Both the position numbers and the translations under genes were made by a program. From IMG/VR virus record IMGVR_UViG_3300020057_000153, positions 1 to 23,837 of that record: DNA of 23,837 bases, one strand, 5' to 3'. This stretch comes from a virus. Below, one piece after another: positions 1,746 through 23,837 of this stretch; positions within the stretch are counted from its first letter, which is position 1; each line of letters begins with the position of its first letter. Below the pieces are notes generated by a model. It did no database searches and had not been told where the DNA came from. It was given only the letters and a program-made list of their open reading frames with translations.

Positions 1746-3161
1746 TTACAAGATTCTCCACTGAGTTCCGTTGTATTGTACTGGAGCAGAATCGTAGTTA
1801 ATTAATATTAGTGAAGCATCCCCGTTTATATTCTTACCGTTCCCATCTAGGGTTAAACTCCCTAGAGAAGTGCCGCTGAGTATTCTAAACTCTTGGCCCA
1901 GTGTGGGCGCAGCAGGTAGGTAGAAGGTGGCCCCGGGGTAGGTATTTTCTAGGGTGATATCTGAGTTTTGTATGGTGTAGGACGCTACATTTTTCACCTC
2001 ATAGGTACTCGTGGGTGTAGTAGATCCTCCTCCCCCTGAACCTGTATAAATGGTGCTGTGGGAAATCAATTTTTTAGTAGGCATTTGCACTTTATTTGTA
2101 ATCAGGGTGTGCCCGTCGGAGAAATCAAACTCCAGACTCAACTCATCGTAAACAGTTTCCTCTACTCTTATTCCGGTTATTATAGGGGCGCTGTCCCCTT
2201 TAGGGCCTTGAACCGAAAACCCATTACTCCCAGATATTCCAGGAATACCTCTAGGCCCAAGCGGGCCTCTTTCTCCCTTTAATAAATCTTTATTTTTTTC
2301 TACTACTGTTTGCACGTCTTCGGGGGTTATGTCTTTTCCATCTCGCCCCTGTCTACCTCTCTGGCCTCTGGGGCCTTTGAGAGAATATCTATCCTCTTCT
2401 GTTAAATCTTGAAACTTTAATTTGAGAGACTCTCGCTCCTCTTCACTTAACTCTGAGAACTTTAATTTAAGATCTTCTTTAACAGTAGTTATGTGGGCAA
2501 TAATCAGGGCGTTAACTGTATCTGCATTTTCTTCTATGCTAAAGTCTCTACCTTGTTTTCCCCTCTGACCACGAGGTCCGCGTATAGCTAATAACTCTTC
2601 TTCGTTTAGGTCAGAAATTTTTAACTTAAAATCGCTTTTAATTTCATTAATATAGTTAGAGACTAATGTGGATATTTCACCTTGGGTTTCTGCAAATACG
2701 AAATCCTTACCGTCTTTTCCGTGAGGCCCCTCTAAGCCGTCCCTACCGTCCCGCCCCTTGGGACCACGGAGAAGACCTATCTCATCTCCACTTAAATCAG
2801 AGAATTTTAATTTCAAACTCTCAGAAATACTTTCGATGTGACCGGCAATTATTTTAGTTATTTTCTCTTTGCTTTCATCGAAGTCGAATCCATCTCCGTC
2901 CTCACCCCGTAAAGCCTTTAGTTCGAATTCATTTAAGTCACAGTATTTTAATTTTAGGGAATTTTTGATCGACTCTATGTGGTCAGTGACTAGGGAATTT
3001 ATCCTGCCTTTGTATTCTTCGAAGTCGAAGTCTGTACCGTCGAAACCTCTAGGGCCTCGGATACCTCTAAGCCCTTGCTTGAACTCGGATGAACTAAAAC
3101 ATAGGTTAGTTTGTTCCTCTACTAGAGAGGCTATAAGTGCAATGATTACTTCGTTCTTCAA
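1746..3161 (-). CDS. Collagen-like tail fibre with alternating helical and Gly-X-Y segments
   Basis: 471 residues starting at a TTG; no in-frame ATG occurs before the repeats, and an AGGT-type SD lies just upstream. Short collagen-like blocks (GPRG, GEDGDG, GRDGRDG, GQRGRQGRDG, GERGPLGPRGIPG) lie near residues 32-42, 85-92, 132-153, 194-206, 262-277 and 296-325. They alternate with helices of about 40-50 residues ending in a repeated 'LKLKFSDLxEEE' signature. Residues about 386-471 repeat the C-terminal module of the 876-1325 protein. The architecture is that of a trimeric fibre shaft with a C-terminal tip, probably used in host attachment. The alternation looks like tandem duplication of a helix-plus-collagen unit. 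Confidence 0.85.
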   Translation of the reverse strand: MKNEVIIALIASLVEEQTNLCFSSSEFKQGLRGIRGPRGFDGTDFDFEEYKGRINSLVTDHIESIKNSLKLKYCDLNEFELKALRGEDGDGFDFDESKEKITKIIAGHIESISESLKLKFSDLSGDEIGLLRGPKGRDGRDGLEGPHGKDGKDFVFAETQGEISTLVSNYINEIKSDFKLKISDLNEEELLAIRGPRGQRGKQGRDFSIEENADTVNALIIAHITTVKEDLKLKFSELSEEERESLKLKFQDLTEEDRYSLKGPRGQRGRQGRDGKDITPEDVQTVVEKNKDLLKGERGPLGPRGIPGISGSNGFSVQGPKGDSAPIITGIRVEETVYDELSLEFDFSDGHTLITNKVQMPTKKLISHSTIYTGSGGGGSTTPTSTYEVKNVASYTIQNSDITLENTYPGATFYLPAAPTLGQEFRILSGTSLGSLTLDGNGKNINGDASLILINYDSAPVQYNGTQWRIL

Positions 3162-10674: not shown

Positions 10675-11091
10675 ATACGACTTTTTAAAATATATGCGCA
10701 CCTCCTCGAAAAAAAAAAAAAAAAAATTTCGAAAAAAAAAAAAGTAACTGCGTCTTTTCTTTTTGACCTACCAAAAAAAAGAAAAATATTCTTCTTTACT
10801 TATTGTAATCACGTGATAAACTGCCCTGTACGGGCGGTCGGCACGACCTGTACAGGGTTTTCGCGCGTATGTATTGAATGTAAATCTTAACCCTTAAACC
10901 AGGTTTAGGATTAAAAAATAAATAAAAATTTTCTTTACGTGCGGCGATTTGCCAAGTGACACATTCGCGTATTCCAAAATATTTATCTTAAATTTTTGAG
11001 TGTGAAATGACTTTTATTTTTTGGGTTATATTTCCCCTCTCTTTTTGGGGCCAAATTCCTCCCTTCTTTTTACCTACATATTTAATTGCAA
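10675..11091. other. Gene-free control region with A-tracts and dyads
   Basis: No credible gene is seen. The region holds A18 (10709-10726) and A12 (10732-10743) separated by TTTCG, the hairpin described separately, and a 17-bp dyad CCTTAAACC-A-GGTTTAGG (10893-10909). The nonamer TAAACCAGG of that dyad recurs at 11226-11234 just before the helicase start. Phased A-tracts and AT-rich DNA beside a replicative helicase would suit an origin, but no iteron set is visible, so this is a weak inference. Confidence 0.4.
10824..10861 (+). terminator. GC-rich hairpin with short T-run, candidate terminator
   Basis: CCCTGTAC (10824-10831) pairs with GTACAGGG (10850-10857), and an inner stem GGTCG/CGACC closes on a 3-nt loop. 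TTTT follows (10858-10861). It could terminate rightward transcripts from the 10638 promoter. The T-run is short, so an operator or RNA-structural role is an alternative. Confidence 0.5.
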
Positions 11092-11243: not shown

Positions 11244-12830
11244 ATGAATTTAGATACCATCGCATTAAAATTTGGCGTGGAGAGAAGAGGCACTAAATAT
11301 AAAACCTCCACTATGTCCAGCTTCAAAGAGAAAACTTATGTCCATCAAAAGATAAGTTCCGTTTTAAGTAAATCCGAACTACTCCCATTTTTAATCCAGC
11401 ACTATAAGGACTTAGATTCGCTGGTTGAGTTAATACTGGCCGGGGCCAAGGTTCGTGAAATTCCCACAGAGGTTCTAGATTGGGTTACTGAATACATCAC
11501 GCCAATACATGACAACCACGGAGGATTTTCTTTTGTAGATAGTCGAACCGGCATGACGGTTGTAATGGACGCTAAGTTTTATTTAGCAGCAGTGAAGAGT
11601 GAAGTACTTGGTATGAGCTTAGATAAATTAAGGTTATCCGCAATACCTGCCTTTAAGACTTATAACCCCCAGATTCAACCAGGTATGCAGGTATCTGCGA
11701 CGGTTGATAAAATGACCGGCAGAGAGATTTTTGAGATAAACCGATACAATCCCCCCATTTGGATATCGAAACCTCAAATTAAGGCGGATAAGTTGGTCAT
11801 ACCGACGATTTTAGATATGTTTCTCGTCCACCTTTTCCCAATACCTCAAAATAAGTTGGAAGCACTGCATTGGTTATACCACGCCACTTTCAGTAGACGT
11901 TCGCAGGTTATACTAGTTCTCTGTGGTAAACAGGGTATTGGTAAATCTATTTTCGGGGATAGTTTGTGCGCCGCCATGGTGGGAAGACACAACCACGCCA
12001 CCGCCCCGAGGAGTTTAACTAAAAAAGAATTCAACGATTGTTATGACGAAAAGAGAATTGTATTAATTGAGGAAATAGATATTAGGGAAGAGGAAGGGCC
12101 TTCGGCCAAGGCGGAAGTTAATGATCGGCTAAAGGCCTTTAGTAATGATGTGATTAGTGTCGAAGGGAAAGGCATTAGAGCTAGAACTATTATCAACTTC
12201 GCCTCCACAGTTATTACTAGTAATAAAACCAAATCAATTCCAATCATGGTGCCCGACGAGAGGCGATTTCTATGTATAGAAACCGGACACACTCCTCTGA
12301 AAGAGGTGATGAATCCAGAACTAATAACAAGTTTAGTAGAGCAATTAGAAGATCCCGAGGGGAAAGTGGTACAGCAATTTGGGGAGTGGCTCAGAGAGTT
12401 TGGTAACTTACAAGAGGAAGGGGGAGAGTTTAGAATGGTTCACTCCCAAATTAAGTACGATATGTATATGAGTGGAATACCGCTATCTATGAAACAAGTA
12501 GTGGAGCACATAAGAAAAAGAAAGGAAGGGGCCAGAGAAGATCTTGAACTAGAGATGAACTCACCCCTGTCTAAATTACCAGGGTATAAATTAGATATGT
12601 TAGAGGAGTGGCACGGGGTGACCATTAAGGAATTAGTAGAGGCCAGTAAAGTAGTGAGGGGGAGAGAAAAGATCTATGCGCGGGAAGAGGCCATAAGGGA
12701 ATTTCTAAGGGATCACTTAGAGGCACCGCCGGAGTTTTTACCTTTAGTTTATTTTAGTGAGTCGGATAAAGATTTCCTTTATTTTTCTAAAGTGGATAAC
12801 GGAGAAGGGGTTGAGGATGAAATACTATGA
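11244..12830 (+). CDS. SF3-type replicative helicase (phage primase-helicase-like)
   Basis: 528 residues. The centre has Walker A GKQGIGKS (228-235), Walker B IVLIEEID (272-279) and an SF3 motif C with a sensor Asn in TVITSNKTKSIP (about 322-333). It ends with Arg340/Arg341 in PDERR, a likely arginine finger. This is the D5/DUF5906-like AAA+ helicase used by phages to unwind DNA at replication forks. The N-terminal 180 residues show no clear primase catalytic motif, so primase activity is not claimed. Its stop overlaps the next start (ATGA), making it the head of the long rightward coupled operon. An AGGA lies about 10 nt before the ATG. Confidence 0.9.
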   Translation: MNLDTIALKFGVERRGTKYKTSTMSSFKEKTYVHQKISSVLSKSELLPFLIQHYKDLDSLVELILAGAKVREIPTEVLDWVTEYITPIHDNHGGFSFVDSRTGMTVVMDAKFYLAAVKSEVLGMSLDKLRLSAIPAFKTYNPQIQPGMQVSATVDKMTGREIFEINRYNPPIWISKPQIKADKLVIPTILDMFLVHLFPIPQNKLEALHWLYHATFSRRSQVILVLCGKQGIGKSIFGDSLCAAMVGRHNHATAPRSLTKKEFNDCYDEKRIVLIEEIDIREEEGPSAKAEVNDRLKAFSNDVISVEGKGIRARTIINFASTVITSNKTKSIPIMVPDERRFLCIETGHTPLKEVMNPELITSLVEQLEDPEGKVVQQFGEWLREFGNLQEEGGEFRMVHSQIKYDMYMSGIPLSMKQVVEHIRKRKEGAREDLELEMNSPLSKLPGYKLDMLEEWHGVTIKELVEASKVVRGREKIYAREEAIREFLRDHLEAPPEFLPLVYFSESDKDFLYFSKVDNGEGVEDEIL

Positions 12831-12940
12831 CTGAAATATTAACTTCCCTTGCGGTGAGCTGGATTCTCATACTCGGGACTTGTGTAATTCTCTTTTCGCT
12901 GAAATGTTTTCTTATTAAATTATCGGGTGAGAAATTATGA
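12827..12940 (+). CDS. Membrane miniprotein, copy 1
   Basis: 37 residues beginning MTEILTSLAVSWILILG and ending KLSGEKL. It is one hydrophobic span with a basic C-terminal end. It overlaps the helicase stop and the next start by ATGA at both ends, so it is locked into translation of the operon. It is the most diverged of four homologues (others at 13445, 15776 and 20422); the shared pattern is 'xxLTSIALxxxFxLWxxVIxSLxxxxxKLxGEK'. The conservation of length, frame and coupling across four copies supports it being real. Function unknown; a small toxin, holin-like or membrane-effector role is speculation. Confidence 0.7.
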   Translation: MTEILTSLAVSWILILGTCVILFSLKCFLIKLSGEKL

Positions 12941-13203
12941 AAGACGCAGAAAATAAATTTATTAGTTTTTTGGAAGAGGAGGGAGTTTTGGAAGAACTCG
13001 AAACTAACTTTGTGAATAGCTGGGGAAACAATGGTTTTATTGTCTTTAAAGCTTGGATTAAATCTGCTAACCCCCGTGATTTCACCCTCTTTGCTTTTTT
13101 TCGGGGCCATGCGAACGAGGAAATAAAACGGAGAGAGGAAGAAAAATGGCGCGCGATTCACTATAAATGGCAGGATTTTATCAAACAGGATGGTGCAGAA
13201 TGA
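12937..13203 (+). CDS. MKDAEN-family protein, copy 1
   Basis: 88 residues, acidic, with no membrane span. The family pattern is MKDAENKFIxFLEExGVLEE at the N-terminus, a middle 'AWIKSANPRDF' block, an aromatic 'FAFFRGHA' block, and a C-terminus WQDFIKQDGAE. Conserved Trp, Phe and Lys residues suggest a small globular fold. It is coupled to its neighbours by ATGA at both ends. The closest relatives are the other copies at 13200, 14534, 15218 and 15537. I do not recognise an outside family; function unknown. Confidence 0.75.
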   Translation: MKDAENKFISFLEEEGVLEELETNFVNSWGNNGFIVFKAWIKSANPRDFTLFAFFRGHANEEIKRREEEKWRAIHYKWQDFIKQDGAE

Positions 13204-13448
13204 AAGACGCAGAAGATAAATTTATTAAGTTTTTAAAAGATAGAAATCTTTTTGAAGCATTTAAAACTAACTTTGACCTTAGAGGGGAAGAATTCCTAGA
13301 AGAATTTCTTGGGAGGTCGCGACCTATGGATTATGTTAGTTATGCTTTTGATTGGGGCAGTGGTGACGAAAAATTTAAAGAGTTTCTAAAGTGGGAGAAA
13401 CTCCATATTGAATGGCGTGAGTATATTAAATTGCATGGTGCAGAATGA
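13200..13448 (+). CDS. MKDAEN-family protein, copy 2 (divergent)
   Basis: 82 residues from the ATG at 13200, which overlaps the previous stop (ATGA); an earlier in-frame ATG at 13167 lies inside the previous gene and is rejected. The N-terminal MKDAEDKFIKFLKD and C-terminal 'EWREYIKLHGAE' keep the family shape, but the middle differs (RGEEFLEEFLGRSRPMDYVSYAF). This suggests faster divergence of the central part while the ends that carry translation signals are preserved. Function unknown. Confidence 0.7.
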   Translation: MKDAEDKFIKFLKDRNLFEAFKTNFDLRGEEFLEEFLGRSRPMDYVSYAFDWGSGDEKFKEFLKWEKLHIEWREYIKLHGAE

Positions 13449-13558
13449 AAGACGTATTAACTGCAATCGCCTTATACATGTTTTTTTATCTTTCGGCGTA
13501 TGTTATTTTTTCACTGGTGATATGGATTATTAATAAATTAATAGGTGAGAAATTATGA
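13445..13558 (+). CDS. Membrane miniprotein, copy 2
   Basis: 37 residues, MKDVLTAIALYMFFYLSAY through IINKLIGEKL. One membrane span of about 22 residues is followed by a short basic tail. ATGA overlaps join it to the genes on both sides, and GGTGAG shortly before its end serves as the SD for the next ATG. It is closest to copy 3 (15776) in its C-terminal half (WIINKLxGEK). Function unknown. Confidence 0.7.
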   Translation: MKDVLTAIALYMFFYLSAYVIFSLVIWIINKLIGEKL

Positions 13559-13725
13559 GTGCATTAAGGGATTATTTCGGAGTAGGCGACACTCCCGACG
13601 ACTATTACTCTTTGAATGTTTGGTGGAATGTTGTGACTAATAATTTTTATTTTAGGTATAACGGGGTTTTGCCGCCAAAACCTTATCAGTGTGTTCTTTT
13701 AGGAAAGCTGCCGGTGATAATATGA
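13555..13725 (+). CDS. Small hypothetical protein, 56 residues
   Basis: The frame MSALRDYFGVGDTPDDYYSL ends KLPVII and overlaps both neighbours by ATGA. It is rich in aromatic residues (Tyr, Trp, Phe) with 'NVWWNVVTNNFYFRYNG', suggesting a small beta-rich fold. It is a singleton in the array and belongs to none of the three repeated families. Coupling at both ends is the main support for translation. Confidence 0.55.
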   Translation: MSALRDYFGVGDTPDDYYSLNVWWNVVTNNFYFRYNGVLPPKPYQCVLLGKLPVII

Positions 13726-14537
13726 AAGTAACATTTAAAGACGATTATGTTTTATTTAGTAACAAAAACGGTTCTTATCATTTATCAACAAAGCAGTTTA
13801 AATCAATGGGACGTGAAAACTCCATTTTGTTTGCAGAACGGGAGATTAATAAAAAGAATCATTCGATTTATATTAAAAAAACTATTAACTTTAATGATGC
13901 CCGTGCAATAGGGTTATGTGAGTATGGAATTAAAGATTTTTGTGATGAACTAAATCTCGATATTTCTAAAACATACAAACTCAGTTATCTAGTAAATAAG
14001 CTAACTGTACGAATTATTAATAAGTATCTAGATGAATGTTTGAAGTTATTTGATAAAGATATTTTTAAATCATTTGGAGGTGCTATTGGGTATCTTGAGT
14101 GTACTGGTTCAAGAATGCCGGTTGTTTTCAAAAGTGGTATTTTTTCAGATCGCATACTTTATTTAATGGCCTGTGATTTTGCTTATTCCACACTACATAT
14201 TTTTGAAAAAGAATTGCCTAACGACAAGCGACCAAGGTTGGCCATCGAGGCAAGATTGGATTGGTTAGAGGGAAAAATAACGGACAAAGAGTTAGAAGAT
14301 GCTGCACATTCTGCTAAACACTCTGCCTCCTATTCTGCCGATAATTATGCCTCCTATTCTCCTTCCAGTTCTGCCGCCTATTCTGCCTTCTATTCTGCCG
14401 ATAATTATGTCCTATCTGCCGCTATTTCTACCGCTGCTGCTGCTTCTTATAGTGAGGACGCTGTTCGAACTGCTGAATTCTACAAGAAGCAAAAGAACTA
14501 TGTAATTTTCATGCTGTGTTTGGAGGGTCTAAAATGA
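13722..14537 (+). CDS. Hypothetical protein with an Ala/Ser/Tyr-rich repeat region
   Basis: 271 residues from the ATG at 13722, chosen because it overlaps the previous stop (ATGA); the in-frame ATG at 13689 lies inside the preceding gene. Residues about 1-180 look globular (e.g. 'GAIGYLECTGSRMPVVF'). Residues about 190-250 are low-complexity with repeats such as SASYSADNYASYS and SAFYSADNYV. At DNA level a 19-nt unit recurs with a 60-bp period (14331-14349 and 14391-14409). Similar Ala-rich repeats are common in phage and plasmid proteins of unknown function. It is the largest member of the array. Confidence 0.65.
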   Translation: MKVTFKDDYVLFSNKNGSYHLSTKQFKSMGRENSILFAEREINKKNHSIYIKKTINFNDARAIGLCEYGIKDFCDELNLDISKTYKLSYLVNKLTVRIINKYLDECLKLFDKDIFKSFGGAIGYLECTGSRMPVVFKSGIFSDRILYLMACDFAYSTLHIFEKELPNDKRPRLAIEARLDWLEGKITDKELEDAAHSAKHSASYSADNYASYSPSSSAAYSAFYSADNYVLSAAISTAAAASYSEDAVRTAEFYKKQKNYVIFMLCLEGLK

Positions 14538-14773
14538 AAGATGCAGAAAATAAATTTATTAAGTTTTTAGAAGAGAAGAAAGTTCTGGAAGAATTCAAAG
14601 CTAGCCTTAAAAACACTAGAGGCTTCGACGATCCTAAGGTTTGGCTCAAATCGGTTAATCCTAGCCATTGCATTAGTTTAGCTTTCTACTGGGGCCATGC
14701 GGGCGAGTGGGGAAAATGGAGCGCGATTAACAATGAATGGCAGGATTTTATTAAACAGGATGGTGCAAAATGA
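14534..14773 (+). CDS. MKDAEN-family protein, copy 3
   Basis: 79 residues from the ATG at 14534 (ATGA overlap with the previous stop). It follows the family consensus closely: MKDAENKFIKFLEEKKVLEE, then 'VWLKSVNPSHCISLAFYWGHAGE' and 'NNEWQDFIKQDGAK'. The last 43 nt, with the start of the next gene, form the left copy of an exact 56-bp direct repeat. The gene is coupled to the WDGY gene downstream. Function unknown. Confidence 0.75.
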   Translation: MKDAENKFIKFLEEKKVLEEFKASLKNTRGFDDPKVWLKSVNPSHCISLAFYWGHAGEWGKWSAINNEWQDFIKQDGAK

Positions 14774-14786
14774 AAGATGCAGAAAA
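14731..14786 (+). repeat. Exact 56-bp direct repeat, left copy
   Basis: Positions 14731-14786 are identical to 15179-15234, 448 bp apart. The repeat spans the 3' end of one MKDAEN gene, the ATGA junction and the first 17 nt of the next gene. It brackets the body of the WDGY gene. Confidence 0.9.
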
Positions 14787-15165
14787 GACAGAATCATTGT
14801 TTTCAAAAGCAATAACAGACATTGAGCGCTATCTGGCTTTTCCACCTAAGTGGGACGGCTATAAAGCACCACCATTTTCCAAAAATGCAGTTAGCTTTTG
14901 CACCGAATTGGTTTTGAATGTTAGGGCATATGTAGACTTTATAAATACAGATCTTTCTAAGATTTCACCTTGCCCGTGCCCTGATGGATCTATAGATATT
15001 GAATTTTCATCAAAACATAAGACACTCGTATTTAACTTTTCAAATAATTTAGAAGAGATTGGAATTTTCTTTGAAGACAAAATTTCTAACCAAAATCCAG
15101 AAGAAGTTACATGCATACACCATGAAGCACCTTTGGCAAAATACCTTACTAAGTTCTTTGCTTAG
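14770..15165 (+). CDS. WDGY-type hypothetical protein carrying a borrowed MKDAE start
   Basis: 131 residues. The first five residues (MKDAE) are the beginning of the MKDAEN family; the remainder is unrelated to it. 'FPPKWDGYKAPPFSKNAV' near residues 24-41 and 'PCPCPDGSIDIEF' near 67-79 match a widespread bacterial/phage hypothetical family with a 'W-D-G-Y-x-A ... P-D-G-x-I-x-x-E' pattern. Its function is not established to my knowledge. The gene ends in TAG without overlap, and a 43-nt MKDAEN tail follows, so it appears to have replaced the middle of a family copy by recombination. It depends on the array's translation signals. Confidence 0.7.
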   Translation: MKDAEKTESLFSKAITDIERYLAFPPKWDGYKAPPFSKNAVSFCTELVLNVRAYVDFINTDLSKISPCPCPDGSIDIEFSSKHKTLVFNFSNNLEEIGIFFEDKISNQNPEEVTCIHHEAPLAKYLTKFFA

Positions 15166-15178
15166 GAAGTGGAGTCAG

Positions 15179-15221
15179 CAATGAATGGCAGGATTTTATT
15201 AAACAGGATGGTGCAAAATGA
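15179..15221 (+). pseudogene. 3' remnant of an MKDAEN gene
   Basis: These bases encode NEWQDFIKQDGAK plus stop in one frame, identical to the end of the 14534 gene, but no start or upstream part is present. The remnant still supplies the SD-like AGGATGG and the ATGA start for the next gene. Confidence 0.8.
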
Positions 15222-15234
15222 AAGATGCAGAAAA
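15179..15234 (+). repeat. Exact 56-bp direct repeat, right copy
   Basis: Identical to 14731-14786; identity stops at 15178/14730 on the left and after the AAAA at 15231-15234 on the right. It lies between the WDGY gene and MKDAEN copy 4. Confidence 0.9.
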
Positions 15235-15523
15235 TAAGTTTATTAGTTTTTTGGAAGAGAGAGGAGTTCTGGAAGAATATAAAGCTAGTTTTAAAAAATT
15301 CAGAACAAGGTTTGGTTTGGATAAACCTCTTGAGGTTTGGCTTAAATCAGTCGGGCCTCGCTATTACGTCGAATATGCTTTTTCATGGATTTATATTGGA
15401 AACGAAAAAAAATGGCGCGACCTTAGTATTGAATGGGAAGACATAGTTAGTTGTCTAGAGCATGAAAATTTCTTCCCAGTGAATCAAAGGGGCGATTATA
15501 TAAATAAATTATGTACGACTTAA
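15218..15523 (+). CDS. MKDAEN-family protein, copy 4 with altered C-terminus
   Basis: 101 residues. The N-terminal and central blocks follow the family (MKDAENKFISFLEERGVLEE, 'VWLKSVGPRYYVEYAFSW'), but after 'LSIEWEDI' the usual FIKQDGAK end is replaced by about 27 unrelated residues ending NKLCTT. The replacing DNA (around 15497-15540) resembles the 3' end of the membrane-miniprotein gene (AATAAATTA ... GTGAGAGATTATGA), suggesting recombination between the two families. There is a 13-nt gap to the next gene, whose SD lies in that remnant. Confidence 0.7.
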   Translation: MKDAENKFISFLEERGVLEEYKASFKKFRTRFGLDKPLEVWLKSVGPRYYVEYAFSWIYIGNEKKWRDLSIEWEDIVSCLEHENFFPVNQRGDYINKLCTT

Positions 15524-15536
15524 AAAGTGAGAGATT

Positions 15537-15779
15537 ATGAAAGATGCGGCAAATAAATTTATTAAGTTTTTAGAAGAGAAGGGAGTTCTGGAAGAATATA
15601 AAGCTAGGTTTGCGAATGGCGGGGGAAGCGACGATCTTAAAGATTGGCTCAAGTCGAGTAATCCCAGCGATTTCATCCTCTCTGCTTTTTTTTGGGGCCA
15701 TGCGAACGAGGAGGCAGAAAAATGGGGCGTGATTAACTATAGATGGAAGGATTTTATCAAACAAGATGGTGCAAAATGA
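15537..15779 (+). CDS. MKDAEN-family protein, copy 5
   Basis: 80 residues, near the family consensus: MKDAANKFIKFLEEKGVLEE, 'DWLKSSNPSDFILSAFFWGHANEE', and 'RWKDFIKQDGAK'. GTGAGAG before the ATG acts as SD. Its stop overlaps the next start (ATGA). It is closest to copy 1 in the central aromatic block and to copy 3 at the ends, a mosaic pattern consistent with exchange among copies. Function unknown. Confidence 0.75.
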   Translation: MKDAANKFIKFLEEKGVLEEYKARFANGGGSDDLKDWLKSSNPSDFILSAFFWGHANEEAEKWGVINYRWKDFIKQDGAK

Positions 15780-15886
15780 AAAACGTATTAACTTCAATCG
15801 CCCTATGCGGAATTTTTCTCCTATGGGCGTATGTTATTCTTTCACTACTGAAGTGGATTATTAATAAATTAATGGGGGAGAAATGA
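15776..15886 (+). CDS. Membrane miniprotein, copy 3
   Basis: 36 residues, MKNVLTSIALCGIFLLWAY through IINKLMGEK. It has a single span plus a basic end. ATGA joins it at both sides, and the GGGGGAG that encodes its last residues is a strong SD for the following ATG. Its last 67 or so bases recur almost exactly at 16184-16250 as an out-of-frame remnant. Function unknown. Confidence 0.7.
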   Translation: MKNVLTSIALCGIFLLWAYVILSLLKWIINKLMGEK

Positions 15887-16094: not shown

Positions 16095-16235
16095 ATGATT
16101 AAAAAATACAGAACAATACCTGTGGAAAAAATTGCACTTCTTTTTGATGGAAACAATTACAAAGAGTGTGAACAATTGCAGGATTTTTCTCCTGTGGGCG
16201 TATGTTATTCTTTCACTGCTGAAGTGGATTATTAA
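16095..16235 (+). pseudogene. Truncated KKYRxxPV-type phage protein fused to a foreign tail
   Basis: 46 residues. The first 31 (MIKKYRTIPVEKIALLFDGN and on to QLQDF) resemble the N-terminus of short phage proteins starting 'KKFRKKPVxxEA'. From 16184 the DNA is the membrane-miniprotein sequence read in a different frame, giving FSPVGVCYSFTAEVDY and an early stop. GGGAG upstream gives a usable SD, so it may still be translated, but the original protein is lost. Possibly a short functional peptide; broken gene is the simpler reading. Confidence 0.6.
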
Positions 16236-16250
16236 TAAATTAATGGGGGA
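16184..16250 (+). repeat. Remnant copy of the membrane-miniprotein 3' end
   Basis: These 67 bp match 15813-15879 with two A/G differences. The reading frame of the miniprotein is not used here, but its GGGGGA tract still serves as SD for the gene starting at 16257. Confidence 0.85.
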
Positions 16251-16256
16251 AAGATT

Positions 16257-16583
16257 ATGAACGAGGACATTTGGGTAACAAAAAAAGATGACGTGCGGTA
16301 CAGAATCAAGGATTACACTGGCGAGGATTTTTCTTACAGTGTTTTAAGAGTCTGCCCATGGTACGAATGGCAAAAGATTAAGTGTCTTTCGGATTTAGCT
16401 GAACGAATCGGAGAGGATCATTATCATGATGAACCTTGTAGTATCGAGACTTATGAGTGCAATGTGGATCTTTTATACAATGGGAAAATTTACCCTTTTA
16501 AAATAACAGGCCAGATTTCCATAGATTGGCAAAGCAAACAAGGTGAAGCTGTTAACTACATAATGACAGAGGAAGACGCATGA
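16257..16583 (+). CDS. Hypothetical protein, 108 residues
   Basis: MNEDIWVTKKDDVRYRIKDY leads a probably alpha/beta protein with several Trp and Cys residues ('VCPWYEWQKIKCLSDLAERIG', 'YECNVDLLYNGKIYPFKITG'). No membrane span, signal or known motif. SD GGGGGAAAG comes from the miniprotein remnant. Its stop overlaps the next start (ATGA). Singleton in the array; function unknown. Confidence 0.65.
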   Translation: MNEDIWVTKKDDVRYRIKDYTGEDFSYSVLRVCPWYEWQKIKCLSDLAERIGEDHYHDEPCSIETYECNVDLLYNGKIYPFKITGQISIDWQSKQGEAVNYIMTEEDA

Positions 16584-17020
16584 GCGAGATAGCTAATCAA
16601 AAAAACATTTCCCTCAAAGAGTGTCAATCGCGAGATTCATCTGTAAAGGTCGAAGGCTATACAAAAGGCTATACAGAGGGTTTTACAGAAGGCTTTACAC
16701 AAGGCTATTTCGACGGTGCAGAGCAAGGCGCGGGTTTAATTTGTGAAAGTCTTAAAATAGATTGCTCAGGCGCTTATGACTATGAAGATGCCGTTAAACT
16801 AATTAATCTTCATAACGAAAGACAAATAGAAAAAATCGCACAGCTAGAAGTAGAGAATGAGGATTTAAAAGTCAAACTCAATGTAGTTAAAAAAGACTAC
16901 TGGTTTATGATAAATTTGCTTGAGAGATACACTACAAACATAGATGAGTCGGTAGCCGATTGTCTTGAGAGAATGAAGCTTAGAAAGCCGATGTTTGAAA
17001 TTAAAAAGGAGGGCGTATGA
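16580..17020 (+). CDS. Gly-Tyr repeat plus coiled-coil protein
   Basis: 146 residues. Residues about 26-46 carry a tetrad repeat (GYTKGYTEGFTEGFTQGYFDG; spacing of four with G and an aromatic), as in amphipathic helix segments of some phage and FliH-like proteins. Residues about 78-105 form a coiled coil (NERQIEKIAQLEVENEDLKV). A 20-bp stretch encoding 'KIAQLE' recurs at 21186-21205 within another array gene. It ends with KKEGV, and the AGGAGGGCGT that encodes this is the SD for the first KYKLEDL gene. Function unknown. Confidence 0.65.
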   Translation: MSEIANQKNISLKECQSRDSSVKVEGYTKGYTEGFTEGFTQGYFDGAEQGAGLICESLKIDCSGAYDYEDAVKLINLHNERQIEKIAQLEVENEDLKVKLNVVKKDYWFMINLLERYTTNIDESVADCLERMKLRKPMFEIKKEGV

Positions 17021-17379
17021 ATAAATATAAAATAGAAGATCTGAAAGTGGGTGCGGTTTTTAAAGATGGGGACGCAACAAGAACAATTCTCCTGGTGGGA
17101 AAGACAGATGTTTTTTACTCCTATCGCTTCACGAGTGATCGCATTGAAAATATTTGCCCCCTTGGTGATTTTTTGCGTGGCGATAAGGGCGCATTAGTCG
17201 TACCAACAAAAAAAATTGCCTACGTTGAGTTCCAGAGTAACTACGACCTGGTATCAAAACACTATTGCTCAAAAGAGGTATGGTACCGTGAAATAAACGC
17301 TAGTACGAATCATAAATTTATTCGAGAATTTGAAATTGAAGTTGGTGAAGATGGCTTTCCAATTGAGAGGGGCGTATGA
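17017..17379 (+). CDS. KYKLEDL-family protein, copy A
   Basis: 120 residues. Domain 1 (1-65) is the family hallmark: MNKYKIEDLKVGAVFKDGD, a 'TRTILLVGKTDVFYSY' strand pair, a variable stretch, then 'FLRGDKGALVVP'. Domain 2 (66-120) has 'KIAYVEFQSNYDL', 'HYCSKEVWY', and 'HKFIREFEIEVGEDGFPIERGV'. The protein is small, soluble and probably beta-rich. The 3' block is nearly identical to copy E (18876), a sign of recent duplication. ATGA overlaps on both sides. I know no characterised homologue. Confidence 0.8.
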   Translation: MNKYKIEDLKVGAVFKDGDATRTILLVGKTDVFYSYRFTSDRIENICPLGDFLRGDKGALVVPTKKIAYVEFQSNYDLVSKHYCSKEVWYREINASTNHKFIREFEIEVGEDGFPIERGV

Positions 17380-17741
17380 ATAAATATAAATTAGAAGATT
17401 TAGAAGTGGGCGCAGTTTTTGAAGAGAGCGGCCATACGACGAGAACAATTATTGCCGTGGGCAAGATTGAGGTTCTTTATTCCTATCACTCCACGTGTGG
17501 CTACGTTGAAAAGATTTGTCCCATCGGAGAGTTTTTGCGTGGGGATAGGGGCGAATTAGTTAGGCCAACTATGAAAATCGCTTATGTTGAGTATTGGAGT
17601 TGCCGCGATCTTTCGTCAAAACGCTATTGCTCAAAAGAGGTTTGGAACCGTGGAGCAAGCACTAATAGCACTCTTAAATTTATTCGAGAATTTGAAATTG
17701 AAGTTGGTGAGGATGGATTTCCAATCGAGGGGGGCGTATGA
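17376..17741 (+). CDS. KYKLEDL-family protein, copy B
   Basis: 121 residues with both family domains intact (MNKYKLEDLEVGAVFEESG; ending GEDGFPIEGGV). Relative to copy A the variable stretch after 'YSY' is different (HSTCGYVEKICPIGEF), while the flanks are almost unchanged. This suggests a ligand- or partner-contacting loop. The GAGGGGGGCGT (six G) encoding the last residues is the SD for copy C, followed by an ATGA overlap. Confidence 0.8.
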   Translation: MNKYKLEDLEVGAVFEESGHTTRTIIAVGKIEVLYSYHSTCGYVEKICPIGEFLRGDRGELVRPTMKIAYVEYWSCRDLSSKRYCSKEVWNRGASTNSTLKFIREFEIEVGEDGFPIEGGV

Positions 17742-18115
17742 ATAAATATAAATTAGAAGATTTAAAGATCGGCTCGGTTTTTAAAAATGGTAGTAATATA
17801 AGAACAATTGTCACAGCAGGCAAGACACATGTTTTTTATTCTTTTATTGAGGATGGAATTTACAAGGAATACGCCGCTACTATTAAACTATTCCTTGACG
17901 GATGGTATGGCGATTTAGTTAAGCCAACTACGAAAGTTACCTACGTTGAATACCAGAGCAAGAGCGACCTGATAACAAAACACTATTGCTCAAAAGAGGT
18001 ATGGTACCGTGAAATAAACGCTAGTACGAATCATAAATTTATTCGAGAATTCGAAGTTGAAGTTGGTGAAGATGGATTTCCAATCAAGGGGGGCGTATGG
18101 ATAAGTATAAATTAA
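17738..18115 (+). CDS. KYKLEDL-family protein, copy C (stop lost, extended)
   Basis: 125 residues. Its variable stretch differs again ('FIEDGIYKEYAATIKLFLDGW'). At the usual ATGA junction the sequence is ATGG, so the family stop after GGV is gone and five extra residues (WISIN) are read before TAA; the overlap with copy D becomes 19 nt. Domain 2 is near-identical in DNA to copy A. It is otherwise intact. Confidence 0.8.
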   Translation: MNKYKLEDLKIGSVFKNGSNIRTIVTAGKTHVFYSFIEDGIYKEYAATIKLFLDGWYGDLVKPTTKVTYVEYQSKSDLITKHYCSKEVWYREINASTNHKFIREFEVEVGEDGFPIKGGVWISIN

Positions 18116-18462
18116 CTGATATAAAAGTGGGTGCGGTTTTTAAAGAGAGTGGCACAACAAGAACAATCATAGCAGTATGTAACTTGCTGGTAATTTATTC
18201 TTATACTGAGAATGGGCTTTATAAGGAAAGTGCCGCTAACATTAACCACTTTTCTGACGGGGATTATGGCGAATTAGTCGTGCCAATTACGAAGGTTGCC
18301 TGTGTTGTGTACCAGAGCAAGTACGACCTGAGATTCACACACTGTTGCTCAAAAGAGGTATGGTACCGTGGAATGAACGATAGTACGAATCATAAATTTA
18401 TTCGAGAATTCGAAATGGAACTCGGCGCAGATGGCTTTCCAATCGAGGGGGCGTATGAGTAA
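18097..18462 (+). CDS. KYKLEDL-family protein, copy D (G-tract shortened)
   Basis: 121 residues, MDKYKLTDIKVGAVFKESG through ADGFPIEGAYE. The terminal G-tract has five G instead of six, which shifts the frame so that it ends GAYE rather than GGV and overlaps the next gene by 8 nt. Some conserved residues are changed ('AVCNLLVIYSY', 'HCCSKE'), so it is the most eroded full-length copy. The variable stretch resembles copy C (TENGLYKESAANINHF). Confidence 0.75.
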   Translation: MDKYKLTDIKVGAVFKESGTTRTIIAVCNLLVIYSYTENGLYKESAANINHFSDGDYGELVVPITKVACVVYQSKYDLRFTHCCSKEVWYRGMNDSTNHKFIREFEMELGADGFPIEGAYE

Positions 18463-18883
18463 ACCATTTTTCATACATGACGATTTTGATTCAAACATCG
18501 AATATTTTAAGACAGAAAAAGAAGCTCTGATATATTTTGAGCGCATAAAAATTAACCTAAAAGAAAACGGCGGTTGGCCGCAGGAAGTTCTGGACGGGGC
18601 TATAAAGTTTGGGGTTGTCATTTGTGATAGCCGTGCGGCAAGTAAAATGTCGGTACCCATAGATCCATATGGTGACCCTATTGAAGTTGAGCTTGCTGAT
18701 ATTGAAAATCCTTTAATGAAAATGCTTGAACAACTAGAAACAGAAAACGAAACTCTGAGGGGTCGCTTGCTCCACGAAGTTAAACTAATTGGCGATGCTG
18801 CGAATGACGAAATCAATAGACTAGAAGCAGAGCATGAAAAATTAAAGGCAATAATTAAAAAACTTAGGGGAGAAAATGACTAA
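18455..18883 (+). CDS. Hypothetical phage protein with C-terminal coiled coil
   Basis: 142 residues from the ATG at 18455 preceded by GAGGGGGCGT; an ATG at 18431 lies inside copy D and is rejected. The N-terminal domain (KPFFIHDDFDSNIEYFKTEK, 'ALIYFERIKINLKENGGWPQEV') looks like a small alpha/beta fold. Residues about 90-142 form a long Glu/Leu coiled coil. The frame ends in TAA 8 nt after the next ATG. No family recognised with confidence. Confidence 0.65.
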   Translation: MSKPFFIHDDFDSNIEYFKTEKEALIYFERIKINLKENGGWPQEVLDGAIKFGVVICDSRAASKMSVPIDPYGDPIEVELADIENPLMKMLEQLETENETLRGRLLHEVKLIGDAANDEINRLEAEHEKLKAIIKKLRGEND

Positions 18884-19255
18884 ATATAAATTAACTGATT
18901 TAAAAGTCGGTGCGGTTTTTAAAGAGAGTGACGGAGCGAGAACAATTATAAGAACAATTATTACAGTGGGCAAGGCAGACGTTTTTTACCACAGTAAGCC
19001 CACGTTTGGTTACGTTGAAGATTGTGCTTCGATTGATTTATTCTTATCTGGACACTATGGTGAATTAGTCGTACCCACAAAAAAATTGCCTACGTTGAGT
19101 TCCAGAGTAACTACGACCTGGTATCAAAACACTATTGCTCAAAAGAGGATTGGAACCGTGGAATAAACGCTAGTACGAATCATAAATTTATTCGAGAATT
19201 TGAAATTGAAGTTGGTGAAGATGGATTTCCAATTGAGGGGGGGCGTATGTTGTGA
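18876..19255 (+). pseudogene. KYKLEDL-family copy E, frameshifted
   Basis: The frame from 18876 follows the family up to 'GELVVPTKK', then an A7 run (A8 in copy A) shifts it and it stops at 19166 after unrelated residues. In the -1 frame the family continues (IAYVEFQSNYDLVSKHYCSK on to GEDGFPIEGG) until 19255, where a seven-G tract alters the end. The downstream half is almost identical to copy A. It may be a dead copy, a sequencing error in homopolymers, or a site of ribosomal slippage. The truncated product would be 96 residues. Confidence 0.75.
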
Positions 19256-19319
19256 TGTTGATAACTTATAGAATGGTGCCCGATACAGAATAAAAATTTA
19301 AAAATGAAAGGAGAAACAA

Positions 19320-20069
19320 ATGAAATATCCAAAAGTACCTCAGATTTATGTAACTGTTGATTACAAGGCCTTTAAAATAATAAGTTTTAATAGGCAAATT
19401 AATTCACGCAATTTAGGTCGAATTATTGCTCAAGCACAGAAAGATTTTAAACTACAATTGTTCCCTATTATCGTGAACGAGAATATGGAAATCATAGACG
19501 GACAGCATCGTTTCACCGCTTGTAAAACTCAAGGGTGGCCGGTGTATTACATTAAGATGCCGGGGAAATCTGCCACAGTGGAAGAGGTTTACTCTCTTAA
19601 TATTGTAGGTAAGAAGCATACCCTGAGCGACAAGATTCAAATGCTATATTTAGCAGGGGATGCGGAAATTTCTAAGGCATTTGTTCTGGTAGATAGGTTT
19701 CCAAAAGTTGCTGCATCGGACATAGTGATGCTTTGCGTTTCTCACCAATCCTCTGGTAAAACTTTAGATTCAGTAAATCGGGGAGAGTATAAAGTTACAC
19801 GTTTTCGTGAAGCCGGCGAACTTTTAATGGCCCTTGAAACTAGTACACTACCTGAGAGATTTACCAATAGAACTATTTTTGCGGTGGCCACTCTTTGTGT
19901 ACACAATAACATTAAACCAAGTCAGTTAATGGCGCAGATTGAAAAGTATAAACATCTAGTTAAACCTTATAAAACTAAGGACGATGTGCGACGTAATTAT
20001 GCTGACGTTTATAATTATCGTCGCCATTCAAGTTCTCATATTAGCGGAAGTAAAAAAGGGGCTTTATGA
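19320..20069 (+). CDS. ParB-like nuclease-domain protein
   Basis: 249 residues. Residues about 45-80 contain 'FPIIVNENMEIIDGQHRFTA' and 'GWPVYYIKM', the ParB/sulfiredoxin-like N-terminal fold with the DGQHRF nucleotide-binding motif. The remainder is helical and basic, with no clear ParB central HTH. Phage members are usually DNA-binding or nuclease/CTPase-type proteins of unclear role. It has its own strong SD (AAAGGAG, 7 nt spacing) after a 64-nt gap, so translation restarts here. Its stop is again coupled to a KYKLEDL gene by ATGA. It interrupts the family array. Confidence 0.85.
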   Translation: MKYPKVPQIYVTVDYKAFKIISFNRQINSRNLGRIIAQAQKDFKLQLFPIIVNENMEIIDGQHRFTACKTQGWPVYYIKMPGKSATVEEVYSLNIVGKKHTLSDKIQMLYLAGDAEISKAFVLVDRFPKVAASDIVMLCVSHQSSGKTLDSVNRGEYKVTRFREAGELLMALETSTLPERFTNRTIFAVATLCVHNNIKPSQLMAQIEKYKHLVKPYKTKDDVRRNYADVYNYRRHSSSHISGSKKGAL

Positions 20070-20425
20070 CTAAGTATAAATTGGAAGATTTGAAAGTTGG
20101 TGCGGTTTTCAAGAGCAGTCATTCGACGAGAACGATTATCACAGTAGGGAAGATAGATGTCTTTTATTTCTATCACTCAAAGTATAGCTACGCTGAGGCT
20201 ATTTGCCGCATTAGTGAGTTTTTGAGCGGAGAAAGGGGCGATTTAGTTAAGCCAACAAAAAAAATCGCTTATGTTGAGTTTTGGAATTCCCACGATCTCT
20301 CGTCAAAGAAGATTTGCTTAAAACAAATATGGGGCAACAGAATAAGCACTAAACCTAATAAATTTATTCGAGAATTTGAAATTGAAGTTGGCGAGGATGG
20401 CTTCCCGATTGAGGGGGGCGTATGA
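20066..20425 (+). CDS. KYKLEDL-family protein, copy F
   Basis: 119 residues, with both domains intact (MTKYKLEDLKVGAVFKSSHS; end GEDGFPIEGGV). The variable stretch is 'HSKYSYAEAICRISEFLSGE', and domain 2 differs from A-D in 'FWNSHDLSSKKICLKQIW'. The six-G tract at the end gives the SD for membrane miniprotein copy 4 and an ATGA overlap, showing that the signal works across families. Confidence 0.8.
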   Translation: MTKYKLEDLKVGAVFKSSHSTRTIITVGKIDVFYFYHSKYSYAEAICRISEFLSGERGDLVKPTKKIAYVEFWNSHDLSSKKICLKQIWGNRISTKPNKFIREFEIEVGEDGFPIEGGV

Positions 20426-20535
20426 AAGATATATTAACTTCAATCGCGTTGTGCTGGATTTTTATACTCTGGACTTGTTTCATTCTCTTTTCGCTGAAGA
20501 GGCTTTTTAAAAAATTAATGGGGGAATTAAAATGA
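20422..20535 (+). CDS. Membrane miniprotein, copy 4
   Basis: 37 residues, MKDILTSIALCWIFILWTC through KLMGELK. One hydrophobic span of about 20 residues and a basic end (KRLFKKL). It lies far from the other copies, between two KYKLEDL genes, coupled on both sides by ATGA. GGGGGAATTAAA before its end serves as the next SD. Its presence in a different neighbourhood supports mobility of the cassette. Confidence 0.72.
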   Translation: MKDILTSIALCWIFILWTCFILFSLKRLFKKLMGELK

Positions 20536-20996
20536 GCAAATATAAATTAGAAGATTTAAAAGTGGGTGCGGTTTTTAAAGAGAGTGGCGGATCGGGAACA
20601 ATTATAAGAACAATTATTGCCGTGGGCGAGACAAATGTTTTTTACTCCTATCCCACTGCATCTAACCGCGCTGAAGGTGCTTGCTCTATTGGTGGGTTTT
20701 TGAATGGCAATAGGGGCGAATTAGTCAAACCAATTAAAAAAGTTACTTTGGTTGAATATGGAAACAAGGATTCTATAGGTTTAAGAAGTTGGTGCAAAAA
20801 AGAATATTGGGATAGTGTCGAAAGTGCCATTTCTGGCAATAAGCTTGTCAGGGTATTTGAAATTGAGAGCGAGGTTGACGATGAGGATTTTCCAATTTGT
20901 GAGGCTTTTTGGAAAAAAATAGAAGAGGATGATTTGTTAAAAAGAGCTCGCGAAGCACTGGAGCTGTACGGGAGGGGAGAAAATGAGCAAATATAA
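20532..20996 (+). CDS. KYKLEDL-family protein, copy G with acidic C-terminal extension
   Basis: 154 residues. Domain 1 is typical but has a small insertion (SGGSGTIIRTII), also seen in copy E. Domain 2 is diverged ('KVTLVEYGNKDSIGL', 'KLVRVFEIESEVDDEDFPI') and is followed by about 35 extra residues, acidic and helical (FWKKIEEDDLLKRAREALEL). The stop lies 14 nt inside the next gene; GGGAGGGGAG is the SD for that start. Confidence 0.75.
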   Translation: MSKYKLEDLKVGAVFKESGGSGTIIRTIIAVGETNVFYSYPTASNRAEGACSIGGFLNGNRGELVKPIKKVTLVEYGNKDSIGLRSWCKKEYWDSVESAISGNKLVRVFEIESEVDDEDFPICEAFWKKIEEDDLLKRAREALELYGRGENEQI

Positions 20997-21228
20997 ATTA
21001 GAAGATTTAAAAGTGGGCGCAGTTTTCAAAGACGGGGATATCACGAGAACAATTCTCATGGTGGGCAAGACAGATGTTTTTTATTCTTTTGCTCATAATG
21101 GAATTTACAGGGAATACGCCGCTACTATTAACCACTTCCTTAGCGGACAGTTTGGTAAATTAGTTAGACCAAATGTTAAAACAAAAAAAAATCGCACAGC
21201 TAGAATCCGAAAACAGGCTTCTGGTTGA
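20983..21228 (+). CDS. KYKLEDL-family copy H, domain 1 with frameshifted coiled-coil tail
   Basis: 81 residues. Domain 1 is intact (MSKYKLEDLKVGAVFKDGDI through 'QFGKLVRP'). After 'NVKTKK' an A9 run leads to NRTARIRKQASG and a stop at 21228. With one A fewer, the frame would read KIAQLESENRLLVEIKREGSK and stop at 21253 in a perfect ATGA overlap with the next gene. That tail matches the coiled coil of the 16580 gene (20 identical bases). So the ancestor was a domain 1-coiled coil hybrid, and the present copy is frameshifted or slippage-dependent. Confidence 0.65.
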   Translation: MSKYKLEDLKVGAVFKDGDITRTILMVGKTDVFYSFAHNGIYREYAATINHFLSGQFGKLVRPNVKTKKNRTARIRKQASG

Positions 21229-21249
21229 AATTAAAAGAGAGGGGAGCAA

Positions 21250-21660
21250 ATGAGCAAATATAAATTATCAGATTTAAAAGTGGGCGCAGTTTTTAAGAGC
21301 AAATATGCGATAAGCACAATTATTAGAGTAGGCAAGTCAGAGGTTTGTTACTCCTATCAGTCCACGCTTAGCTACGCTGAAAAGTTTTGTTCCATTGAGA
21401 GTCTTTTGCGCGGCGAAAAGGGCGAATTAGTTAAGCCAGATATTAAAACTAATAAAATCAAAACACAAAAAGGGACTGTAGCATGGGCGATGGTTCAGCT
21501 CGTGAAAGGGTTAAGGGTGAGACACGAGGGGTGGGATTCCGGCAAATATATTAACCTTGTGGAGTATGGCGATTGCGACTGGTGGCTTCCGCTGGTAACA
21601 CGGGGAAAAAACGCAGCCGGATGGGAGCTTTATGAAGAGAAAGAGGAAAAAACAAAATGA
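21250..21660 (+). CDS. KYKLEDL domain fused to a DUF2829/Tad2-like domain, copy I
   Basis: 136 residues. Residues 1-63 are family domain 1. After a linker (KPDIKTNKIKTQKG) comes a different C-terminal domain, about 75-130: 'AWAMVQLVKGLRVRHEGWDS', 'KYINLVEYG', a Trp-rich middle and 'AAGWELYEE'. The A-x-x-x-L-x-x-G-x-x-V-R-x-x-GW ... DWELxE-type layout resembles DUF2829 proteins, the family of Thoeris anti-defence protein Tad2, which binds a cyclic ADP-ribose signal. The usual 'WLASQTD' part is not clear, so this is a resemblance, not a proof. GGGGAG SD and ATGA coupling are present. Confidence 0.7.
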   Translation: MSKYKLSDLKVGAVFKSKYAISTIIRVGKSEVCYSYQSTLSYAEKFCSIESLLRGEKGELVKPDIKTNKIKTQKGTVAWAMVQLVKGLRVRHEGWDSGKYINLVEYGDCDWWLPLVTRGKNAAGWELYEEKEEKTK

Positions 21661-22085
21661 GCAAATATAAATTAGAAGATTTAAAAGTGGGCGCAGTTTT
21701 TAAAAATGGTGACGTAACGAAAACAATTATCGCAGTGGGAAAGAAAGATGTTTTTTACTCCCATCACTCCCTGTTTGGTACCAGTGAAGGTATTTGCCGT
21801 ATTGGTGAGTTTTTGAGCGGCGGAGGGGGCGAATTGGTCGTGCCAGATGTTAAAACTAATAAAATCAAAACAAAAAAAGGAACTTTAGCGTGGGCGATGG
21901 TTCAGTTAGCGAAAGGGCTTAAGGTGCGACGCCAAGGAGGGGACGCCGGTGGCTATATTCAACTCACGGGCGAGCTAAATGCACAGAGATTAGTCACTGG
22001 GAGAGGAGGGCAGGCATTAATAGGATGGTCGCACAGAGTAGACGAATGGGAGCTTTGTGAAGAGAAAGAGGAGAAAATAAAATGA
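21657..22085 (+). CDS. KYKLEDL domain fused to a DUF2829/Tad2-like domain, copy J
   Basis: 142 residues. It has the same architecture as copy I: domain 1 (MSKYKLEDLKVGAVFKNGDV to 'GGGGELVVP'), the linker VKTNKIKTKKG, then 'AWAMVQLAKGLKVRRQGGDA', 'GYIQLTGEL' and 'VDEWELCEE'. The GW seen in copy I is GG here, so a key aromatic of the DUF2829-type pattern is lost and binding may differ. Its stop overlaps the downstream methyltransferase-like gene (ATGA), ending the array. Confidence 0.7.
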   Translation: MSKYKLEDLKVGAVFKNGDVTKTIIAVGKKDVFYSHHSLFGTSEGICRIGEFLSGGGGELVVPDVKTNKIKTKKGTLAWAMVQLAKGLKVRRQGGDAGGYIQLTGELNAQRLVTGRGGQALIGWSHRVDEWELCEEKEEKIK

Positions 22086-23599: not shown

Positions 23600-23837
23600 T
23601 CCCAATCTAACGGGCGATAATTCAAGTTAAATTCAGCTAAACACTACATATTCCCAGATCAATAGTACGATATTCATACCAAATTCAGCTAAACATTACA
23701 TATTTCCAGATCAATAGTACGATATTCATACCAAATTCACGCGCCCAATATTCCCCATAAGTAATAGAAAGCACAGAAGTAACGTAATTTCAAGCACTTA
23801 GTCCCCACCACTTTTCAAAACTCACCTCGTAAGAATC
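23600..23837. other. Right-end non-coding region
   Basis: Apart from the 52-bp repeats, I see a small TGGGA/TCCCA hairpin over the TerS stop (23591-23604) without a U-run, and no gene on either strand up to the window edge. Confidence 0.5.
23629..23732 (+). repeat. Two tandem 52-bp direct repeats
   Basis: Unit 1 (23629-23680) and unit 2 (23681-23732) differ at only two C/T positions; a third unit begins (AAATTCA, 23733-23739) and then diverges. They are AT-rich and lie 30 bp after the TerS gene. Possible roles are a terminase binding site, replication iterons or a regulatory array. Confidence 0.9.

Follow-up and report, generated by a model that had tools for sequence, protein, structure and literature searches.

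The DNA analysed here (the window) is the whole of IMG/VR record IMGVR_UViG_3300020057_000153 (23,837 nucleotides), a linear phage fragment of 23.8 kb. Terminase, portal and other head genes lie on the minus strand, and a plus-strand accessory region extends from 12.8 to 22.1 kb, after a DUF5906 gene. The second half of this region consists of ten copies of a gene family, here called KYKLEDL, whose products carry a common N-terminal domain (N-domain) in front of a tail (Table 1). Several neighbours in the array overlap at ATGA stop/start sites, and the array therefore reads as a single gene run. The ten plus-strand copies that an earlier, sequence-only reading had placed at 17017-22085 were all recovered, both by a profile that includes these copies (10/10, E-values 1e-31 to 1e-36) and by single-sequence searches (4e-17 or better); these values exclude chance as their source. 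The open reading frames (ORFs) of eight copies are intact, whereas two (E and H) are frameshifted.

Table 1. Coordinates of the KYKLEDL copies and of neighbouring features in the window.
Feature	Position	Strand	Remarks
DUF5906 (VapE-like) gene	11244-12830		
Transmembrane-like protein, ~37 amino acids, other four copies/remnants	12821-12937, 13430-13555, 15743-15883, 16099-16257		
MKDAENKFIKFLEE family	12937..15779	+	Second multicopy family, 5 full copies, same accessory region
Coiled-coil protein	16580..17020	+	Immediately upstream of array
Copy A	17017..17379	+	N-domain and standard tail; A8 tract at joint (17208)
Copy B	17376..17741	+	ATGA overlap with A; N-domain and standard tail
Copy C	17738..18115	+	Cassette 94-97% identical to that of L009 copy 9d; tail as in A over codons 86-110
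Copy D	18097..18462	+	N-domain and standard tail
SKPFFIHDD coiled-coil protein	18431..18883	+	Within array; start probably 18456
Copy E	18876..19166	+	N-domain; tail DNA intact to ~19250, out of frame (A7 at 19079, not A8)
Copy F	20066..20425	+	N-domain and standard tail; A8 at joint (20257); AlphaFold2 model m44b200453380
Transmembrane-like protein, ~37 amino acids	20413..20532	+	One of five copies/remnants
Copy G	20532..20996	+	Cassette shares 98-100% identity with L009 9a and L011 11a; tail diverged, extended
Copy H	20983..21228	+	First half like A, second like C/9d; tail a coiled coil, shifted out of frame beyond A9 (21183)
Copy I	21250..21660	+	N-domain and tail resembling first half of Tad2/DUF2829
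Copy J	21657..22085	+	N-domain and tail homologous to that of I

Relatives of the KYKLEDL genes

The family occurs in three further IMG/VR fragments, designated L009, L010/L019 and L011. L009 carries five copies, one of them cut by the contig end, and L011 a single copy that is also cut by the contig end. L010/L019 carries four N-domains, two of which are fused in a single ORF of 200 amino acids (L010 3127-3729) with a leader fragment (SDLKVG) at the junction. Another ORF (L010 5196-5435) begins with a KYKLEDL-like leader (MSKHGLEDLKVKPIFK) and continues with a weak match to a NikA-like mobilisation protein (E 0.001, below the cut-off). No homologue was found in Pfam, PHROGs, annotated phages or 85,000 genomes, the genome scans having used short peptide patterns that reach close relatives only; six further pattern matches were attributed to chance. 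All four records also carry the MKDAENKFIKFLEE family and the transmembrane-like protein of ~37 amino acids. Genes for RecT and YqaJ lie upstream of the array in L010 and L011. Across 1,964 nucleotides that cover these two genes, L011 and L019 share 97% identity; the match stops where YqaJ ends, short of the array.

Mosaic structure of the array

Recombination tests on the variable stretch of the N-domain and on the tails strongly support the shuffling of cassettes and of tails, the latter already noted in the sequence-only reading; this is the strongest result of our sequence comparisons. Near-identical cassettes of ~150 nucleotides (codons ~13-62) are found between diverged flanks in different phages. 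Copy G and copy 9a of L009 show no difference at 112 consecutive polymorphic sites spanning codons 12-68 (alignment numbering), and their upstream gene and tails are diverged. The cassettes common to G, 9a and 11a, and to C and 9d (identities in Table 1), are likewise flanked by diverged upstream DNA and tails; C and 9d do not differ over codons 13-43 and differ little up to codon 62. Conversely, the tails of A and C show no difference at 54 polymorphic sites, whereas their cassettes are 49% identical. Cassette distances are uncorrelated with tail distances (Mantel test, r=0.016, p=0.40), as are the distances of block 13-35 with those of block 36-62 (r=0.021, p=0.42).

Mosaics also occur within the cassette itself. 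Copy 10c of L010 is a hybrid that breaks between VFY and S: informative sites favour 9b by 21:3 up to residue 33 and B by 38:2 from residue 35 (p=0.0002), and block 36-62 of B is the closest relative of the same block in 10c. Copy H is A-like and then C-like (p=0.001 if C is taken as the parent, 0.025 if 9d is). A hybrid origin of J from A and F was unsupported (p=0.35) and was rejected. Because of these mosaics (G/9a, C/9d, the A/C tail, 10c and H) and the uncorrelated distances, exchange recurs at three conserved joints, KVGAVFK (codons 11-16), VFYSY (32-36) and GELVxPTxK (58-66).

Constraint and variation along the N-domain

The earlier description of residues 1-65 as almost unchanged proved too strong. 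Mean pairwise identity between copies over residues 1-66 is 57% (47-67%), and only the leader (residues 1-16) is nearly constant. Amino-acid diversity is 0.15 over residues 1-16, 0.70 over residues 17-22, which form a second variable loop, 0.35 over 23-36, 0.67 over 37-57 and 0.32 over 58-66. The variable stretch described previously is real: residues 36-58 are more variable than the remainder (permutation p=0.0003), and among stretches of 23 residues, variability peaks in the one that begins at residue 35. Within it, E44, G55 and G58 are invariant, and F52 and L53 nearly so.

The ratio of nonsynonymous to synonymous substitution (dN/dS, omega) is 0.09-0.14 in the leader and 0.46 in the tail. 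Since this low leader ratio is accompanied by a synonymous divergence (pS 0.53 over codons 1-16) as high as elsewhere, the leader is conserved as protein and not as a DNA motif; its conservation as a DNA-level recombination signal was rejected on the same grounds. Substitution varies along the domain (omega 0.29 for residues 1-35 versus 0.93 for 36-62), as the sequence-only reading had expected, and positive selection on residues 36-62 is suggestive. The M2a model fits this block better than M1a (twice the log-likelihood difference, 2dL, 10.6; 0 of 20 null simulations as high), but 2dL falls to 1.2 and 5.2 when the block is divided into halves, and significance is lost. Because the signal disappears on splitting, it may have been produced by recombination. 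Block omegas of 1.1 (36-58) and 1.6 (36-51) from IQ-TREE were not upheld as robust by the M1a/M2a fits.

Neutral tandem amplification, in which unequal recombination multiplies the copies and relaxed constraint lets loop and tails drift, with no selection for diversity, would account for the two frameshifted copies and for an omega of about 1, not clearly higher, in the variable stretch once the blocks are split; mosaics, too, can arise from shuffling alone. It accords poorly with the constraint on leader (omega 0.14) and tail (0.46), with the invariant E44, G55 and G58 inside the variable stretch, and with eight intact ORFs and retention of the family in four contigs. We regard it as unlikely, though by no means far-fetched.

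Predicted fold of the N-domain

An AlphaFold2 model built with 12 sequences predicts a small barrel over residues 1-60 (predicted local distance difference test, pLDDT, 84-93), with strands at residues 14-16, 21-27, 31-37 and 42-48 and a helix at 49-53, followed by a strand-strand-helix-strand tail; the tail in the model of copy J (pLDDT under 50) is too poor to interpret. Foldseek searches of a viral fold library returned many phage proteins of 55-90 amino acids, including a DUF1653 protein, at a probability of ~0.99 (E>0.08). Matches in the PDB are weak (E>0.05); several are SH3/KOW-like barrels (NusG/DSIF KOW, PWWP), and a TnsB domain was also matched. The N-domain has no Pfam or PHROG match above chance. 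Based on the model and the weak fold matches, it is probably an SH3-like small barrel.

The conserved residues E44, C/A47, F52, L53, G55 and G58 alternate with variable ones along predicted strand beta-4 (42-48) and the next turn. This alternation suggests a single exposed face of variable residues and bears on the earlier question of whether the variable stretch lines one surface; exposure is read here from the pattern and not from model coordinates.

Alternatively, the proteins may be regulators or nucleic-acid binders whose SH3/KOW-like barrel binds DNA, RNA or RNA polymerase, with tails that vary as in the Bro/KilA-N/Rha antirepressors. The weak KOW, PWWP and TnsB matches point in this direction, as do the leader joined to the NikA-like protein in L010 and the suggested origin of Bro-type proteins by combinatorial domain shuffling (PMC6145125). 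However, the fold matches are not significant and no Bro, KilA-N or ANT domain was found, which leaves such a function rather improbable.

Tails and reading frame

Several different tails follow the N-domain, as had been noted. Copies A-G had been read as having the same tail; this holds for A-D and F, whereas E is frameshifted and the tail of G is a diverged homologue, extended at its C-terminus. The A-tract at the domain joint is A8 in A and F, A7 in E and A9 in H. In both E and H the tail is open in another frame, one A off, and the coiled coil of H is thus out of frame as previously described. Assembly error, recent mutation or programmed slippage may explain the offset.

The tail of I and J had been called DUF2829-like, but the resemblance is confined to the first ~21-31 positions of Tad2/DUF2829 (PF11195). 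For the I tail, the match covers positions 1-31 of PF11195 (helix and RxGW strand) and scores 15.4-16.2 bits, under the curated cut-off of 25 bits. With its N-terminal helix and G-x-x-V-x-R-x-G-W strand, the I/J tail reaches a probability of 64% in hhalign over 21 columns, compared with at most 9% for 100 shuffles. Unlike Tad2, I and J are without the second half of the domain and its closing C-terminal motif W-x-[PA]-S-x-x-D-x-x-A-x-D-[WY], present in 11/11 aligned phage Tad2-like proteins; Tad2 membership was rejected on account of the score and the missing motif. A scan of viral contigs with SPO1 Tad2 gave no match, and the tails matched none of the defence-system models in PADLOC-DB.

Tad2 sequesters glycocyclic ADP-ribose (gcADPR) and cyclic dinucleotides (PMC12043709), and the partial resemblance just described, at 15-16 bits and well above the shuffles, would be expected if the KYKLEDL proteins were nucleotide-signal sponges, with a different immune signal for each copy. 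This is very improbable given that the match lies under the family cut-off, that the second-half motif is missing and that 8/10 copies are without even the Tad2-like tail. Hardly credible is a constant leader that serves as a targeting signal (e.g. for capsid packaging and injection) for differing bodies, as in T4 Ip1-3, which have in common only an N-terminal leader directing packaging (PMC12373910): although the leader is the most constrained part and also begins the otherwise unrelated NikA-like ORF, it is predicted to lie within the barrel, and the bodies of 19/19 copies are homologous over residues 17-63.

Neighbouring genes and other features

The 3' part of the coiled-coil gene upstream of the array (16844-17039) is 95% identical to L009 4237-4432, and the region of the SKPFFIHDD gene (18449-18865) is 92% identical to L019 12004-12429. 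Distant relatives of the MKDAENKFIKFLEE family occur in Microviridae record MG945453 and in L035 (9701-10222), where the relative forms the C-terminal portion of a coiled-coil protein. Only the MKDAE start links the window protein at 14770 to this family. The ~37-amino-acid transmembrane-like proteins, with the sequence MKDILTSIALCxIFxLW, constitute a third multicopy family.

The gap separating the oppositely directed gene blocks contains A18 and A12 tracts with TTTCG between them (10709-10743). A protein encoded at 13689-14537 combines a significant Imm5-like match (PF21805, E 4.5e-9) with an Ala/Ser/Tyr-rich repeat, and a long protein among the head and tail genes (1746-3161, minus strand) has several collagen-like GXX stretches. 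Two 52-bp direct repeats, 88% identical, lie near the fragment end, past the small terminase gene (23620-23723). A promoter and terminator scan gave matches no better than chance.

Proposed function of the array

We propose that the locus encodes an array of phage accessory proteins, SH3-like in fold and shuffled by recombination, that bind variable host partners, and we give this reading about an even chance, host binding being its conjectural part. In this reading, homologous recombination, acting both among the copies and across phages, has diversified a tandem array of small proteins, each with a small barrel (residues 1-66) and an exchangeable tail. Exchange at the three coding joints brings two variable segments and the tail into new combinations, and the scaffold is kept by purifying selection; RecT-type annealing may be the motor. 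Most likely, the variable barrel face, a candidate binding site, and the swapped tails would interact with proteins or signals of the host that vary from strain to strain, such as targets of defence or take-over, and because these targets differ, a phage would carry several variants at once. An anti-host role is suggested by the position and variability of the genes and by the uses known for variable accessory genes of phages, whose highly variable regions encode anti-defence proteins among others (PMC12373910). The earlier idea of proteins diversifying against changing partners is supported in part: strongly for the mosaic of variable stretch and tails and suggestively for positive selection, with the partners putative.

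Several points weigh against this proposal. The sample is small (19 copies, four contigs), the window fragment shows no RecT and the three relatives are also fragments. The signal of positive selection is lost when block 36-62 is split, fold searches of the viral library and the PDB gave no match at E<0.001, and no family or annotation match links the KYKLEDL proteins to a host target.

In a more far-reaching version, the array would be an analogue of antigenic cassette switching, with surface cassette and tail exchanged at fixed joints via a phage annealing recombinase and A7/A8/A9 slippage toggling the tails. This seems distinctly doubtful; if true, each phage population would hold a combinatorial repertoire of host-binding proteins. 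If KYKLEDL proteins bind host factors, as the shuffled-array proposal supposes, the array would be a natural variant library on one scaffold, and deep sequencing across its joints could measure the rate of exchange directly.

Comparison with known systems

The T4 Ip locus, an example of accessory-gene and anti-defence hotspots (PMC12373910), is likewise a variable region of small genes with a common N-terminal leader and a differing remainder. The KYKLEDL copies differ from it in their common fold, in recombination within genes and in the putative nature of their function. Combinatorial domain shuffling is also seen in the viral Bro/KilA-N/Rha antirepressors (PMC6145125), but Bro-N, KilA-N, ANT and Rha domains were not detected in KYKLEDL proteins. 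DUF1653 and other small phage SH3-like barrels resemble the N-domain at a Foldseek probability of ~0.99, yet with E-values above 0.08, 10-27% identity and no sequence-profile match. With respect to diversity-generating retroelements, inspection by eye of the window ORFs revealed none resembling a reverse transcriptase, and no invariant repeat of the template type was seen; the ORFs of this incomplete fragment were not compared with a reverse-transcriptase profile.

Another parallel is to the domain-mosaic phage proteins (Nat Commun 2023, PMC10684548), some of which are anti-defence proteins. There, too, conserved and swapped domains are combined in one protein, with recent exchange between phages, and the KYKLEDL genes show both significant identity runs on a diverged background and incongruent blocks. 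Those proteins, however, are mostly tail fibres, endolysins and polymerases compared across genomes, and phage domain mosaicism is usually between genomes in such proteins. Here ten tandem paralogues lie in one genome, and cassettes of ~70-150 nucleotides, below domain size, are exchanged at repeatable joints. Domain mosaicism is already known in phages, and the tandem, sub-domain form found in this unnamed family is a variant of it.

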